A stretch of DNA of 30,499 bases, taken from a virus. The position numbers and the translations under genes were made by a program. Under the pieces are notes generated by a model. That model was not told where the DNA came from. It was given only the letters and a program-made list of their open reading frames with translations, and did not search any database. The stretch lies in the IMG/VR virus record IMGVR_UViG_3300025101_000113, positions 1 through 30,499 of that record. One strand, 5' to 3'. Positions 1,784 to 6,187 of this stretch are shown in pieces (the first letter of the stretch is position 1; every line of letters starts with the position of its first letter).

Positions 1784-1938
1784 TGCTTCTCCTCCTTTGT
1801 AAGCTCCATTGGTTCTGCTTTCGTATTAACAGTATATCTAAGATCCTTGTCTCGTATCTTGCAAAAGAGAAAGTCGTTTAATTCTGTTAGCGTAGGCTTC
1901 CTGTTAGAATGTAAAGTTATGACTATCTCATACTTCAT
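1780..1938 (-). CDS. Small hypothetical protein, 52 aa
   Basis: I found this by hand translation. It begins MKYEIVITLHSNRKPTLTEL and ends MELTKEEKQ. It has a beta-strand-like N-terminus and a charged C-terminus, and I do not recognise it. The ATG overlaps the stop codon of the preceding gene (1938), and its own TGA overlaps the methyltransferase ATG at 1783-1780. The GGAGGAG sequence in its last codons serves as the ribosome-binding site of the methyltransferase gene. The two-sided coupling argues that it is a real gene. Confidence 0.7.
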   Translation of the reverse strand: MKYEIVITLHSNRKPTLTELNDFLFCKIRDKDLRYTVNTKAEPMELTKEEKQ

Positions 1939-2189
1939 TACTGCCCCTTTCCAAAGTAAGGTTTACGCTTCTTTGGTTTGTTCATCATGTCTTGTGTTTT
2001 CTTAATCATGAGATGTGTAAAACCGCTGTTTGTTTTTTTCTGGCACATATCTATATGACCTCTGTCATAGTCTTGCCTTGCTTGTATAATAACATCTGGT
2101 TCTATCTCTACCCAGTTTTTGCCATTAGGTCTTTTAAAAGCAATTAAATTCCAATTATTACTTTTTCTAAATATATGATACTGGCTCAT
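1938..2189 (-). CDS. Hypothetical protein, 83 aa
   Basis: The reading frame is open back to a TTG at 2216, but the ATG at 2189 (MSQYHIFRKSNNW) has AAAGGTGA 5 bases upstream and is the better start. The protein is basic, with a Trp/Phe-rich first half and a C-terminal tail of Lys-Pro-Lys-Lys-Arg type (KPKKRKPYFGKGQ). The tail suggests contact with nucleic acid, but there is no recognisable domain. It follows the HTH gene by 33 bases and overlaps the next gene, so it is the second gene of the leftward early operon. Confidence 0.7.
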   Translation of the reverse strand: MSQYHIFRKSNNWNLIAFKRPNGKNWVEIEPDVIIQARQDYDRGHIDMCQKKTNSGFTHLMIKKTQDMMNKPKKRKPYFGKGQ

Positions 2190-2222
2190 CGAATCACCTT
2201 TGACACTTTCAGACAACTAACA

Positions 2223-2429
2223 TCATTTAAAATAAAAATCGTTAGGCTGTACTGCTCCATTTGTAAGTTTTACTATTGCAAGCATAAATTTCTTATCAGG
2301 TATCATACTATTTTTGTGTGTAAGTGGCAAACACCAACGCCTTACGACAGTTGCATGAGATGCTCCAGTCATCATAGCAAGTTGACCATAAGACCAATTC
2401 TTTTGTAATCTGTAATCGTTTAGTTTCAT
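2223..2429 (-). CDS. Small helix-turn-helix regulator (Cro/CII-like size), 68 aa
   Basis: This is the first gene of the leftward operon. From the ATG at 2429 it reads MKLNDYRLQKNWSYGQLAMM; residues 14-33 form a helix-turn-helix (SYGQLAMMTGASHATVVRRW: first helix, the turn near TGAS, then a recognition helix). At 68 residues it is the size of Cro/CII-type phage regulators and has no self-cleavage domain. An in-frame ATG at 2474 exists, but it lies upstream of the predicted transcription start (about 2457), so the 2429 start is preferred although no clear Shine-Dalgarno precedes it. The location beside two overlapping divergent promoters suggests it controls them. The regulatory role is inference. 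Confidence 0.75.
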   Translation of the reverse strand: MKLNDYRLQKNWSYGQLAMMTGASHATVVRRWCLPLTHKNSMIPDKKFMLAIVKLTNGAVQPNDFYFK

Positions 2430-2446
2430 ATCATGTATATATCTTG

Positions 2447-2473
2447 TTGACCATATACTAGATATATTATACA
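2447..2473 (+). promoter_or_regulatory. Rightward promoter of recombination operon
   Basis: TTGACC (2447-2452), a 15-base spacer and TATACA (2468-2473). A start about 7-10 bases downstream would fall at or just before the ATG of the nuclease gene (2483). No Shine-Dalgarno precedes that ATG and the frame has a TAG at 2459, so the mRNA may be leaderless or nearly so. The spacer is a little short, which may indicate need for an activator. Confidence 0.45.
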
Positions 2474-2491
2474 TTTAACAGTATGAGTCAA
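2464..2491 (-). promoter_or_regulatory. Leftward early promoter
   Basis: Read on the minus strand: TTGACT (2491-2486), a 16-base spacer, TAATAT (2469-2464), with a start expected near 2457 and a leader of about 28 bases to the HTH gene ATG. The -35 box overlaps the first codons of the nuclease gene and the -10 box overlaps the rightward promoter. The two promoters therefore cannot easily be occupied at once. Confidence 0.6.
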
Positions 2492-2492
2492 T
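2478..2492 (+). repeat. 15-bp direct repeat, copy 1 (ACAGTATGAGTCAAT)
   Basis: Identical to the sequence at 5775-5789 and in the same orientation. It contains the leftward -35 box and, on the plus strand, the ATG of the nuclease gene (2483-2485). The two copies flank the recombination genes plus integrase. Confidence 0.8.
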
Positions 2493-3427
2493 GGAATAAA
2501 AATTACAACCATCATAGCAACCCTGCTGTAAGTGATGCCAAAACCTTTTTAGAGAAGTGTATATATAGAAAAAGAGTAGAGAAAGCATACAGTATTTTAA
2601 AGGGTGAAACAGATGGTGATAAAGAACTAGCCTTGGCTACCATAGATAAATACAAGATTGTAAATACAAAGATGCACGCAGGTACAACAGTACAAGAAGC
2701 TTGCGATAAACATTTACTTGAAGATGTATCTCTTGCTAATGCTTTGAAGTATGCAAAAGATAGATTGCGTGAATATGAAAGCCCTAGTTGGAGAGATAAG
2801 GATAAAGAAAAGTTTGAAATACAATATAAATTAGAAAGTCAATTTGCTGAGAAAGAAATTAAAGGCGAGATGCAATGGAGAAAGTCTGACAATGGAACAC
2901 ATACAGAATTAGAACTAGTATTCAATCATGCTATTGAAGGATTGCTTGATGCACAAAAACAACATGGATTAAATAGATTAGAAGGTGAAGTAGATTTATT
3001 TGGAGACTTACCAAAGTGCGAGCTGCCTTATAATGGCAAGCCTGATTATAGTCAATGTATAGAGTTAAAAACACAATGGACTAGCAACGTGCATGAAACT
3101 CCTAGATCAAATAGTTTACCATCTAGTATTAGAGCAGCACACATGACACAGATAGCAGGGTATTATCATCTTACAAATAAAATGCCAACGATTGTGTATG
3201 CAAACAGAGGCGGATATAAAACACTCTCACCTACCGAGGATGAGTTACGAGAATCTTTACAGCTAATTTTTGAGAGTTGTCAAAGAAGAGAGAGATTGCT
3301 AAAAGCAGCAGACAATATAGAAGATGTCTTACGCTTGTGCGATCCGCAATGGAATGGGTTGTTTGGCTGGAATGACATGAACCCAGAAGTTTTAATGAAC
3401 GCTAAAAAAATATGGAGGGTAGAATGA
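2483..3427 (+). CDS. PD-(D/E)XK nuclease, recombination exonuclease type
   Basis: This 314-residue protein carries the PD-(D/E)XK nuclease core. E167/E169 lie in RLEGEVDLFG, the motif II aspartate is D188 (GKPDYS), the ExK motif is E194-L-K196 (CIELKTQW), and a QxxxY motif is at Q223-Y227 (MTQIAGYYHL), as in RecB/lambda-exonuclease-like enzymes. It probably resects phage DNA ends to expose single strands for the annealing protein encoded two genes downstream. The start is the ATG at 2483: there is an in-frame stop at 2459, no upstream alternative and no ribosome-binding site, so leaderless translation is likely. Its end overlaps the next gene by ATGA. The N-terminal 160 residues are a charged helical extension without a recognised domain. 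Confidence 0.85.
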   Translation: MSQWNKNYNHHSNPAVSDAKTFLEKCIYRKRVEKAYSILKGETDGDKELALATIDKYKIVNTKMHAGTTVQEACDKHLLEDVSLANALKYAKDRLREYESPSWRDKDKEKFEIQYKLESQFAEKEIKGEMQWRKSDNGTHTELELVFNHAIEGLLDAQKQHGLNRLEGEVDLFGDLPKCELPYNGKPDYSQCIELKTQWTSNVHETPRSNSLPSSIRAAHMTQIAGYYHLTNKMPTIVYANRGGYKTLSPTEDELRESLQLIFESCQRRERLLKAADNIEDVLRLCDPQWNGLFGWNDMNPEVLMNAKKIWRVE

Positions 3428-3600
3428 AGCGTAGAATAAATCATGATCTTATTCGAGATCATATTAATGTTACAACTATACATCGCAAGCATAAGGGTGC
3501 TTACTATATAATTAAAATGCTTTGCTTGGCAGGTTTGTTGTTGTCATTAGGATATCTTATGGGTTGCGTATACCTTGATTGGGCGGGTATGTATGGCTAA
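3424..3600 (+). CDS. Small single-pass membrane protein, 58 aa
   Basis: The ATG at 3424 has GGAGGG just upstream and overlaps the nuclease stop (ATGA). The N-terminal half is basic (MKRRINHDLIRDHINVTTIH), followed by one hydrophobic segment at about residues 33-54 (IKMLCLAGLLLSLGYLMGCV). By the positive-inside rule the basic half should be cytoplasmic. It overlaps the next gene by 8 bases. I do not recognise it. A membrane protein inside a recombination operon is unusual; superinfection exclusion or host modification is possible, but this is only a guess. Confidence 0.7.
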   Translation: MKRRINHDLIRDHINVTTIHRKHKGAYYIIKMLCLAGLLLSLGYLMGCVYLDWAGMYG

Positions 3601-4330
3601 TATAGATCATAAAATAGTAATGGCTGAATGTGCTAAGTTGTTGAAAACGCATGGCGTGAAAATTAAAGGCAAAGGCTATACTATGGTTAAAGATAGGATA
3701 GAAACATTTAGGAGACATTACGGACTTGAACTTGGCATTAAAACCAATATACACACATACAATGATAAAGTTGTTGTTGTTGAAGCAAGTGTTATTGATG
3801 CAAATGGTAAATGTATTGGAGATGGCAAGTGTGAAGAATTTAGAAGCAGCAGTAAAATAAATCAAAGTTCTGCTCTGATGAATTGTGAAACAGGAGCGAT
3901 AGGTCGAGCATTAGCTAACTGTGGATTATCAGGAACAGAGTTTGCAAGTGCTGAAGAAATGGTTGCTGCTTTGACAGAACAAGAAAGTAAAGTTGTTGCA
4001 AATCTAATTAAAGAAAAAGAAAGTAATGAAGATACTTTACAAGATGATCTTGATAAAATAAAAGACACCTTCCCTGACTCTGAGATAGTAGAAAAAGAAC
4101 CTGTAACAAGGAATCACGATCCTATAGATGACTTTCATCCTAAGCATAACTGGTCTGCTTGGTTTGAGATACAGATGAAAACTATCGTAAACTTTAAATT
4201 CAAAGCAGAACTAAAAAAATACTTTGATAAAAATAAAGATTTGTTTGCAGAGTACAAAGCAGAAGACCCTAAGAAGCGTCAAATACTAATTGATTTACTT
4301 AACAAAAAAAATAAGGAGCTAGAACAATGA
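3593..4330 (+). CDS. Putative single-strand annealing recombinase (ERF/Rad52-like group)
   Basis: With the ATG at 3593 the protein is 245 residues. The N-terminal 130 residues match a phage family with the pattern 'Y..v.dRie.fR..y', then 'v.a.v.d..G..ig.G...E', then the hallmark SALMNCETGAIGRALANCGL (residues 93-112) and FASAEEM. In phages this family sits next to nucleases and is often considered a Rad52/ERF-like annealing protein; that label is from memory. Residues 130-175 are acidic and probably a flexible linker, and the rest is a separate Lys-rich helical domain. Paired with the upstream PD-(D/E)XK nuclease it would form a two-component recombination system. A TTG at 3575 is an alternative but weaker start. 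Confidence 0.65.
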   Translation: MANIDHKIVMAECAKLLKTHGVKIKGKGYTMVKDRIETFRRHYGLELGIKTNIHTYNDKVVVVEASVIDANGKCIGDGKCEEFRSSSKINQSSALMNCETGAIGRALANCGLSGTEFASAEEMVAALTEQESKVVANLIKEKESNEDTLQDDLDKIKDTFPDSEIVEKEPVTRNHDPIDDFHPKHNWSAWFEIQMKTIVNFKFKAELKKYFDKNKDLFAEYKAEDPKKRQILIDLLNKKNKELEQ

Positions 4331-4596
4331 GACCTGAATTTGGAAATTCAAAGATAAAGATATATGAAGATATAACTACAGAACATAAGATAGAAGCAGC
4401 AGCATGGCTGAACATTACTGACGAGGATTTAAGAAAGAAACTAGTAGAGTATTTTTCTGATCCTAAGAATGCAAATATCAATGTTCAGTTATCGAGAAAA
4501 ACTGGTGAGGGATATAACAAAGTTAAAGTCGCTGTGTTTAACTTGTTTGTGAATACACCTAAAGAGGAAAAGAAAGAGGATGAAGAGTTCGTCTGA
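4327..4596 (+). CDS. Hypothetical protein with acidic tail, 89 aa
   Basis: The start codon overlaps the stop of the annealing-protein gene (ATGA). The body is mixed alpha/beta and ends in an acidic tail (EEKKEDEEFV). Acidic C-termini are a hallmark of single-stranded-DNA-binding proteins such as T7 gp2.5 and bacterial SSB, and the neighbours are recombination genes, so a role on single-stranded DNA is an attractive guess. I cannot see an OB-fold signature and do not assign the function. Its 3' end overlaps the next gene by 17 bases. Confidence 0.65.
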   Translation: MRPEFGNSKIKIYEDITTEHKIEAAAWLNITDEDLRKKLVEYFSDPKNANINVQLSRKTGEGYNKVKVAVFNLFVNTPKEEKKEDEEFV

Positions 4597-4774
4597 TAAA
4601 AAAATACTTATCTGGGCAACAGAAACAGAAATAAGCGTACTGGTTGGCAACAAGTTGCATCGTAAACCAGTTACTAAAGAGCAACTGTTACAGCTTGCCC
4701 AGATGTTTCTGGACAAAGCTATCAACAACCATTATAAAGATTTTAAATATACGAAAAATGATTTTACAGAGTAA
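4580..4774 (+). CDS. Hypothetical protein, 64 aa
   Basis: The ATG at 4580 is preceded by GAAAGAGG inside the end of the previous gene. The protein has a beta-rich first half (ILIWATETEISVLVGNKL) and a helical second half (TKEQLLQLAQMFLDKAINN). I do not recognise it. It is the last gene of the rightward operon, and its 3' end overlaps the 3' end of the convergent integrase gene by 11 bases, leaving no room for a separate terminator between them. Confidence 0.65.
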   Translation: MKSSSDKKILIWATETEISVLVGNKLHRKPVTKEQLLQLAQMFLDKAINNHYKDFKYTKNDFTE

Positions 4775-5738
4775 GTGCAGCATCTAGTTTTGCTGCATCC
4801 TCTGCATTTCTTTTGCTATCATCTAGCCAATGACCATACACCTTTCTAGTCATCTCTATAGAGCCATGACCCATAAAGCTTGTTACTTTATGCAAGTCAT
4901 CTCCGTAAGTTTGCAGTAAGATAGAAGCAAAGAAGTGCCTAAGGTCATGCCATCGAATCACTTCTACACCTGCTTGCTTACAAGCTTTCTTTAGTACATC
5001 TCTTAGCTTCTGTCCAAAGATACGCTTGCCATTGTTGTGAAATACTAGAGATTCTTTGTCTGGTACTCCTTGCGACAAACGATATACTTTTAAATCTTTT
5101 GCAAGTGATTCGCTAAGAGGTACTTGTCTCTGACCATTCTTAGTTTTTGTAAAACCAACTGTGTCAAACAACTGTACACATCGAGTTACAGATATAGTTT
5201 TGTTCTCAAAGTTTATATCCTTCCAACGTAACTCTCTTTGTTCGCCTTGTCGTAAACCTGTGTATGCTGCAAACTTTACAGCTAGTGTATATGCTGCATC
5301 CGTCTTAGATAAGATAGTTTGTATTCTATCCTTGCTAATCTTGATTGCTTTGTTCTCTACATCATAGCTTGTATGTTGTCTCTTAGGAAACTTGACCATA
5401 CCCAAAGCAAAAGAATGTGTGTAGCCGCTGTCTAAAAAGAAACTAAAGATACTACGATAAGTATTATAGTAGCCTATCATAGTTTTGTACGACAAATCAT
5501 AGGCCATAATCTGATCTATAATCTGTGCAGCAATCGTAGCCGGTGTTCTTGTTTCACTTACAAGCTTTGTTATATTCCAATCAGCTATCTTCTTGCCATT
5601 AACTTTAAGTGCAAGAAACTTGTTTGCTGCATTTATCTTGTAGTGTAATTCTTGTTTTAAAAATTCATACCTATCAAATCTTTTAGTTTGATACGCTAAC
5701 CATTTATCGGTAGCTGTTCTACCTAGTATTGTTTTCAT
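4764..5738 (-). CDS. int: Tyrosine integrase (site-specific recombinase)
   Basis: This 324-residue protein integrates and excises the phage genome by strand exchange through a covalent phosphotyrosine. All catalytic positions are present: R163 (TGLRQGE), a beta-hairpin lysine (K198 or K200 in TKTKNGQRQVPL), H264 and R267 (HDLRHFF), H291 (MGHGS) and the nucleophile Y301 (TRKVYGHW). Residues 1-60 look like an arm-binding region and about 65-120 like the core-binding SAM-like domain. The start is the ATG at 5738 with GGAGG 5 bases upstream; the TTG and ATG codons just before it lack spacing to a ribosome-binding site. It is intact, so the element should be temperate. It is transcribed from its own promoter and converges on the recombination operon. 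Confidence 0.95.
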   Translation of the reverse strand: MKTILGRTATDKWLAYQTKRFDRYEFLKQELHYKINAANKFLALKVNGKKIADWNITKLVSETRTPATIAAQIIDQIMAYDLSYKTMIGYYNTYRSIFSFFLDSGYTHSFALGMVKFPKRQHTSYDVENKAIKISKDRIQTILSKTDAAYTLAVKFAAYTGLRQGEQRELRWKDINFENKTISVTRCVQLFDTVGFTKTKNGQRQVPLSESLAKDLKVYRLSQGVPDKESLVFHNNGKRIFGQKLRDVLKKACKQAGVEVIRWHDLRHFFASILLQTYGDDLHKVTSFMGHGSIEMTRKVYGHWLDDSKRNAEDAAKLDAALTL

Positions 5739-5752
5739 ATCGACCTCCATCA

Positions 5753-5765
5753 ATACTAGTAGTAT
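5753..5765. promoter_or_regulatory. Inverted repeat over the integrase -10 box, candidate operator
   Basis: ATACTA-G-TAGTAT is a perfect 6-base inverted repeat around one central base. It overlaps the integrase -10 box (5761-5766) and the expected transcription start. The left half, ATACTAG, also occurs at 2455-2461, at the expected start of the leftward early transcript. A repressor bound here would block integrase transcription. Confidence 0.5.
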
Positions 5766-5788
5766 ATACCAATGACAGTATGAGTCAA
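5761..5788 (-). promoter_or_regulatory. Integrase promoter
   Basis: Read on the minus strand: TTGACT (5788-5783), a 16-base spacer, TATACT (5766-5761), with a start expected near 5754, about 16 bases before the integrase ATG. The -35 region is the same 15-base block as in the leftward early promoter, with the same spacer length. Confidence 0.65.
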
Positions 5789-5789
5789 T
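5775..5789 (+). repeat. 15-bp direct repeat, copy 2 (ACAGTATGAGTCAAT)
   Basis: Identical to 2478-2492 and in the same orientation. It contains the integrase -35 box and directly abuts the stop codon of the AT-hook-like gene (5790-5792). Confidence 0.8.
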
Positions 5790-5918
5790 CTATTGTTTCT
5801 TAGGTCTACCTCTTTTGCTTTTCTTGGGAATCACTTTATCTTTACACTCACATAGTTTACCCACTAATCTTTTTTTTATTCTACTAAATAGGTTTTTTAT
5901 TTTGTTTATAATTAACAT
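5790..5918 (-). CDS. Small basic AT-hook-like protein, 42 aa
   Basis: I found this by hand translation. It starts MLIINKIKNLFSRIKKRLVG, has a CEC pair in the middle and ends PKKSKRGRPKKQ. The KRGRPKK core (about residues 35-41) is an AT-hook, a motif that binds the minor groove of AT-rich DNA. AAGGAG lies 9 bases before the ATG at 5918 and only 3 bases before an alternative ATG at 5924. The start overlaps the end of the preceding basic gene. It is the last gene of the late transcript. A DNA-packaging or host-nucleoid role is possible but inferred. Confidence 0.65.
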   Translation of the reverse strand: MLIINKIKNLFSRIKKRLVGKLCECKDKVIPKKSKRGRPKKQ

Positions 5919-6187
5919 TTCCATCTTCTCCTTGCTTGTCTCAATCTAGAGTTAGGGTTCTTTGCTGCCTTCGGAAACTTCTTCATCTGTCCTGCACTTC
6001 TAGCACAATATGACTTTCTTCTTTTAGCTGCTGCACTACCTTTTTTTACTTTGCCAGTAACAGCAGTTTTTAGTTTAGATCCGGGGTTCTCTCTTCTGTA
6101 TCTAGCTACACCTGCTTTGGTCATACCTGCACCAGACTTAGTAGATCGAAAATACTTTTTAGTTTTGGGTGGTTGCTTATCAGCCAT
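5912..6187 (-). CDS. Small basic phage protein ending RRRWKC, 91 aa
   Basis: This very basic protein contains GAGMTKAGVARYRRENPGSK (residues 19-38), LKTAVTGKVKKG, an RRKSYCARSAGQMKK motif and the terminal RRRWKC. This is a recognisable family of small phage proteins (I believe DUF6321, from memory) that often sits in groups of tiny genes in marine phages. The two invariant-looking Cys residues (one in SYCARS, one at the C-terminus) might bind metal or form a disulfide. The start codon overlaps the previous stop (TAATGG). Function is unknown. Confidence 0.8.
   Translation of the reverse strand: MADKQPPKTKKYFRSTKSGAGMTKAGVARYRRENPGSKLKTAVTGKVKKGSAAAKRRKSYCARSAGQMKKFPKAAKNPNSRLRQARRRWKC

Follow-up and report, generated by a model that had tools for sequence, protein, structure and literature searches.

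Dispersed 17 bp dyads at the early and integrase promoters of an uncultured relative of SAR11 phages: a candidate operator set for a Cro-like protein

Introduction

In phage lambda, the CII sites overlap the −35 box at the integrase promoter. Cro of phage PY54 binds a 16 bp palindrome, and the cI and cro mRNAs of PY54 are leaderless (PMC4488713). In mycobacteriophage BPs, five regulatory regions are bound by the repressor, which controls four promoters (PMC4557955). We describe here a family of short inverted repeats in the viral record IMGVR_UViG_3300025101_000113 of IMG/VR, a stretch of 30 499 nucleotides that was analysed as a whole and is called the window below. A 15 bp block, ACAGTATGAGTCAAT, stands there both at the head of a leftward early operon and upstream of a tyrosine integrase gene. 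The two block copies are probably members of a small set of 17 bp dyad operators that would be bound by a helix–turn–helix (HTH) regulator of the phage, the likeliest candidate being a 68-residue Cro-like protein.

Results

Three dyads in the window

The block occurs at 2478–2492 and 5775–5789 in the same orientation on the plus strand, as a preliminary description of the window had reported, and the minus-strand hexamers that it had read there are also found (TTGACT-16-TAATAT, 2491..2464, and TTGACT-16-TATACT, 5788..5761). No further copy with up to three mismatches exists elsewhere in the window. An exact 15 bp repeat is by itself weak evidence, and it is position and dyad conservation that carry the weight: the AT-rich window contains eight exact direct repeats of at least 15 bp, compared with 1.2 on average when its dinucleotides were shuffled 30 times. 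From the identity beyond the −35 box, the preliminary description had considered a shared binding site likely. The 15-mer is not the conserved unit; the true unit is a 17 bp imperfect dyad of the TTGAC-N7-GTCAA type, of which the window holds three:

2475–2491: O-HTH, TTAACAGTATGAGTCAA, holding most of the block copy 2478–2492
5772–5788: O-int, ATGACAGTATGAGTCAA, holding most of the block copy 5775–5789 and overlapping the −35 box of the predicted integrase promoter
2200–2216: O-mid, TTGACACTTTCAGACAA, between the stop codon of the HTH gene and the next early gene, missed in the preliminary description

These are exactly the sites in the window that lie within one mismatch of TTGAC-N7-GTCAA, and two of the three are over −35 boxes. 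O-HTH overlaps the −35 box of the predicted leftward early promoter as well as the start codon of the rightward gene.

The same three sites come out on top when the window is scanned with a 17 bp matrix trained solely on a third locus in other contigs, the off-window promoter of a rightward operon at the left end: 5772–5788 scores 16.8, 2200–2216 scores 14.4 and 2475–2491 scores 13.7, the next site reaching 8.7. Shuffled windows contain a mean of 0.30 sites scoring at least 13.6, against the three observed. Taken singly, the matrix scores are modest; three such sites, each at a regulatory position common to the relatives, are not expected. Judging from the relatives L077 and L078, a fourth operator, belonging to the left-end operon, probably lies a few hundred bases past the left edge of the window. 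In relatives, this small rightward operon encodes proteins of 63 and 160 amino acids of no assigned function and converges on the early operon; a perfect operator is located on its promoter in L077 (2728), L078 (2797), L080 (468) and L177 (4383).

Conservation of the sites in relatives

The relatives (labels L…) include IMG/VR contigs with integrase homologues that are 91–100% identical; a DNA search of a phage collection with the 2200–5900 region gave no match. In these contigs, the integrase copy of the block drifts to TTGACTCGTACTGTCA in L006 and L010, TTGACAGATACTGTCA in L007, TTGACATATACTGTCA in L008 and L009, TTGACATTTGCTGTCA in L011 and TTGACATTTTCTGTCAA in L019, and despite this drift the dyad TTGAC…GTCA(A) persists over the integrase −35 box. 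It is also kept at the integrase promoter of a clade with 59% identical integrases, where the upstream DNA is different. The exact 15-mer was rejected as the conserved unit, since the integrase copy drifts while the dyad stays. At the HTH promoter, the exact block is present in every same-clade contig that covers it, whereas at the integrase promoter it is confined to near-identical contigs and is replaced elsewhere by a dyad variant.

Within the clade of the window, the HTH-side copy does not change, and it also codes there for the first residues (M-S-Q-W) of the rightward gene product. More distant contigs carry the variants TTGACTCTTCGTGTTAA, TTGACTCTTAAAGTCAA, TTGACTCTTACTGCCAA, TTGACTCTTTGTGACA and TTGACTCGTAATGACA, so that all 17 of the listed contigs have a form of the dyad at the HTH promoter, the weakest being those of the L172 and L184 lineages. 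A dyad is also found at the position equivalent to O-mid in L171, L175, L176, L178, L182 and L183. In an initial set of 658 kb, TGACA-N5-TGTCA occurs 15 times, compared with once when the remaining spacers of 0–11 bases are pooled, some of these loci belonging to the same contig; it is present in 13 of the 24 relative contigs, and the reversed control gives none. Comparison of the relatives supports the proposal of the preliminary description that a shared site could let one regulator coordinate the early operon with the integrase.

These data also bear on its other suggestion, a seam for module exchange, in which the block would serve as a short homology for the exchange of the recombination/integrase module, and on the reading that two −35 regions simply coincide. 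The copies do flank the module, and chance exact 15 bp repeats arise at about 1.2 per shuffled window. However, the dyad is also located at promoters that do not flank the module, its N7 spacing is fixed across lineages and, beyond the arms, the two copies of a genome are usually not alike. We consider both a seam and a coincidence extremely improbable.

The wider dyad family and matching within genomes

The aligned HTH proteins, used as a query, led to 80 loci, among which the newly added ones comprise 42 non-redundant contigs (408 kb). Exact TTGAC-N7-GTCAA occurs 25 times in these 408 kb, while other spacers give 0–2 occurrences each, except for N12 with six (in one lineage group). With at most one mismatch there are 100 TTGAC-N7-GTCAA sites, against a comparison value of about 14, and 58 of the 100 fall within the 5.9% of bases that lie upstream of the cro-like, repressor, nuclease (exo), integrase and left genes. 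The remaining class includes some integrase and left sites outside these upstream intervals and a recurrent coding match, TTGACTTGGAAGGTGAA, which is noise. In L240, L242, L250 and L251, the arms upstream of the HTH gene are separated by 12 bases (TTGACGTAGCGAATAACGTCAA) rather than seven; the operator may have another geometry there, or two sites may overlap.

The sixth base of the half-site agrees between the loci of one genome with a frequency of 0.66, compared with 0.34 after permutation (p = 2e-4); with lineage representatives only (16 genomes), the values are 0.65 and 0.32 (p = 1e-4). Such within-genome agreement points to a genome-specific regulator, as −35 boxes alone would not produce it.

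This observation has to be set beside the idea that a host factor binds the dyads. The portal protein of the window is about 60% identical to those of Skadi, HTVC203P and other Pelagibacter phages, from which we infer a host of the SAR11 type. A scan of genome contigs with integrase alignment revealed no close prophage that would fix the host directly, and the best match of that scan, a Rickettsiales contig from a metagenome-assembled genome, has neither the dyad nor an HTH homologue. A factor of SAR11-type bacteria would suit sites that overlap host-type promoters, all the more as the phage protein is a candidate binder only. Yet the sixth base varies between phage lineages while agreeing inside each genome, and the cultured SAR11 phages HTVC034P, HTVC203P, Greip and Skadi-10, which have related structural genes, contain no promoter-placed perfect dyad. 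A host factor is very unlikely to be the binder.

Promoters and genes around the sites

The promoters predicted by a consensus scan and the genes around the dyads are as follows:

2464–2491, minus strand: predicted leftward early promoter, TTGACT-16-TAATAT, nine of 12 consensus matches
2447–2475, plus strand: putative rightward promoter, TTGACC-17-TACATT, nine of 12 matches
5761–5788, minus strand: predicted integrase promoter, TTGACT-16-TATACT, ten of 12 matches
2223–2429, minus strand: Cro-like HTH protein, 68 amino acids, first gene of the leftward early operon and candidate regulator
1938–2189, minus strand: open reading frame of 83 amino acids, the next early gene, downstream of O-mid, function not assigned
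2483–3427, plus strand: open reading frame of the nuclease type, first gene of the recombination module
4764–5738, minus strand: tyrosine integrase, 324 amino acids (PHROG integrase, E = 1.4e-45; Pfam PF00589, E = 8.4e-28)

The number of promoter-like sites in the 2000–6000 region (12) is not above that in shuffles (mean 16.4). The leftward early and predicted rightward promoters overlap fully, O-HTH being located on the −35 box of the former and at the start of the latter. A GGAGG ribosome-binding site lies between the integrase promoter and the ATG at 5738. A promoter over O-mid was rejected on direct reading, no acceptable −10 box being found at 16–17 bases.

The overlap of the site with the −35 box of the integrase promoter is what CII sites also show, and the dyads could be activator sites like those of lambda CII at pI and pRE, switching on the integrase and the early operon. 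However, the dyad is an inverted and not a direct repeat, and the −35 boxes are near the consensus (TTGACA in L007–L009, L011 and L019) and accompanied by a fair −10 box, unlike those of activator-dependent promoters. Near-consensus −35 boxes favour repression over activation, and we regard an activator site as highly unlikely.

The ATG of the nuclease-type gene at 2483 falls inside the block copy 2478–2492. This gene has no ribosome-binding site and the promoter-like pair ends about seven bases 5′ of the ATG; the rightward transcript may be leaderless. In repressor-bearing relatives (L018 and L172–L175), a short inverted repeat, CTCTCTAACTTAGAGAG, upstream of the nuclease gene lies directly over its ribosome-binding site, where translational control is possible. 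Homologues of the 83-residue early gene keep their order in L019, L018 and L080.

The window integrase is about 50 amino acids shorter at its N-terminus than the 373-residue integrase of the repressor-bearing relatives (L018:565–1686). No tRNA or tRNA-end attachment site was found in the window, unlike in the relatives L018 and L080, where a tRNA 3′ end is located just upstream of the integrase. In relatives, the last small gene of the module is preceded by an excisionase-like gene with a weak Pfam match to HTH_17 (L184:6999–7226, L019:7107–7331), which the window lacks (4580–4600).

The candidate regulator and the CI-type repressor

In Pfam and PHROG scans, the HTH and nuclease genes of the window obtain weak annotations or none, the HTH protein giving only weak HTH matches in Pfam, and a PDB sequence search with its profile returned nothing meaningful. 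Its AlphaFold2 model is a confident four-helix structure (pLDDT 88), and the Foldseek neighbours are mostly XRE/Cro proteins, including Xfaso1 Cro, P22 c2 and N15 Cro, although none has a significant E-value. The gene is present in 17 of the 24 relative contigs, namely in every contig that covers the region, and the core SHATV-RR of the protein is invariant in the close set.

In seven of the 24 contigs, a CI-type repressor gene (219–250 amino acids, HTH_3 domain; 4151–4807 in L184) is located between the HTH and nuclease genes. It is absent at this locus in the window, where the gap is 54 bp (2429–2483), and in its short-integrase clade; the repressor-bearing relatives compared with this interval were L184, L175, L174 and L179. 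The groups without the repressor are the window lineage, L193 and, separately, L253–L260; their HTH and nuclease starts are 54–115 bp apart and the operators remain. No homologous repressor was found in the relatives of 33.7 and 28.7 kb. As the CI-type repressor is absent and the sites are kept, gene content makes the 68-residue Cro-like HTH protein the best candidate binder. Where the repressor is present, the simplest reading is that it shares the dyads with the Cro-like protein, as in lambda.

One may wonder at this stage whether the dyads act as operators for the CI-type repressor alone, being leftovers here or served by the repressor of a resident related prophage. In the relatives that have it, the gene of this repressor is indeed flanked by the same dyads. 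On the other hand, the dyads persist in two lineage groups where the gap is only 54–115 bp, and several sites at integrase promoters are perfect dyads (L007, L008, L011 and L019), which does not look like decay. We judge a repressor-only role unlikely and retain the phage HTH regulator, most likely the Cro-like protein, as the probable binder.

Discussion

The sequences themselves show the dyads as a family of fixed spacing, where they lie, that they are conserved and that they match within genomes, along with the gene content around them. From these we infer the identity of the binder, its binding, the activity of the promoters, repression and its timing. Each operator would lie over a −35 box or within an early-gene leader, and a dimer of the phage HTH regulator would bind the dyads. 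By covering the −35 boxes, the bound protein would silence at once the early operon to which its gene belongs and the integrase; on 2475–2491 it would block both the leftward early and the predicted rightward promoters. After infection, the early and integrase promoters would both fire until the accumulating HTH protein shuts them, the outcome being negative autoregulation and a short early burst of integrase. The CI-type repressor of the relatives would probably use the same sites to keep the prophage silent. In HTVC022P, another pelagiphage, the integrase is highly expressed 1–2 h post infection (PMC12753301); this timing is compatible with an early pulse, but is not evidence for the phage studied here.

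Several points weigh against an operator set bound by the Cro-like protein. Each site in the window is an imperfect dyad, 25% of shuffled windows have a site scoring at least 13.6 and there is no obvious promoter under O-mid. Moreover, half-site identity tracks the HTH recognition helix imperfectly across lineages, relatedness being a confounder of this covariation, and a repressor, including one of a non-homologous type, could be encoded outside the window.

A further scenario, tentative and on balance rather doubtful, is a ‘Cro-only’ circuit in these relatives of the abundant ocean SAR11 phages, in which the CI-type repressor has been lost (here together with the excisionase-like gene), while the integrase and all the operators are kept under the lytic regulator alone. 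This would give a brief integrase pulse without classical lysogeny, or leave the repressor to be supplied by a resident relative.

The survival of the operator set in lineages without a CI-type repressor is the most interesting feature of the system. These lineages offer a natural test of the effect of a Cro-type protein on the integrase by itself. What began as a two-copy repeat becomes a testable operator set for the integrase-bearing relatives of HTVC010P-type SAR11 phages, with exact 17 bp targets for binding assays. In a limited search of the open-licence literature, we found no account of these operators, a weak sign that they are new, and none of a lysis–lysogeny switch of HTVC010P-related integrase-bearing phages. 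The Skadi paper refers to two transcriptional regulators and makes no mention of an integrase (PMC10504331).

Comparison with known systems

The pelagiphages of the HTVC010P type and Skadi/HTVC034P share with the window, besides the portal, the divergent early layout of HTH, nuclease and annealing-protein genes, the cultured relatives having a ‘putative nuclease’ and a single-strand annealing gene in the same divergent place. HTVC034P, HTVC203P, Greip and Skadi-10 differ by the absence of an annotated integrase or CI-type repressor, as well as of the promoter-placed perfect dyad.

Mycobacteriophages BPs and L5 have in common with the proposed set one repressor acting at several sites over the genome. 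The L5 sites are, however, asymmetric, bound by a monomer and block elongation, whereas the dyads described here are mostly over −35 boxes, and the proteins and hosts are unrelated. Stoperators of the L5 type are asymmetric, many per genome and located in transcribed regions; the window has three symmetric dyads in 30.5 kb. Lambda CII sites consist of direct TTGC repeats on either side of a weak −35 box, in contrast to the inverted repeat and near-consensus −35 box found here.

The closest likeness is to the CI/Cro operators of the lambda type (OR/OL, including those of N15 and PY54 Cro and P22 c2), with which the relatives and the window share 17 bp dyads over divergent early promoters and a small Cro-type HTH protein leading the early operon, the relatives also having a divergent CI-type repressor gene. 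Several near-identical dyads of fixed spacing stand at promoters of one genome (three in the window, with N7 enriched over 42 contigs), and a Cro-type HTH gene is first in the adjacent early operon (2223–2429), its fold matches being below significance. Unlike the lambda-type triplets, most contigs have one operator per promoter, and operators are also found at the integrase, nuclease and left promoters. The divergent repressor gene is absent from the window and its integrase clade while present in relatives, and for this reason only the operator set and the Cro-like gene, and not a full CI/Cro switch, are claimed for the window lineage. As far as sequence comparison goes, this is a dispersed operator set of the CI/Cro type. 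Phage switches of this kind are well known; the present one is newly mapped, in uncultured relatives of ocean SAR11 phages.

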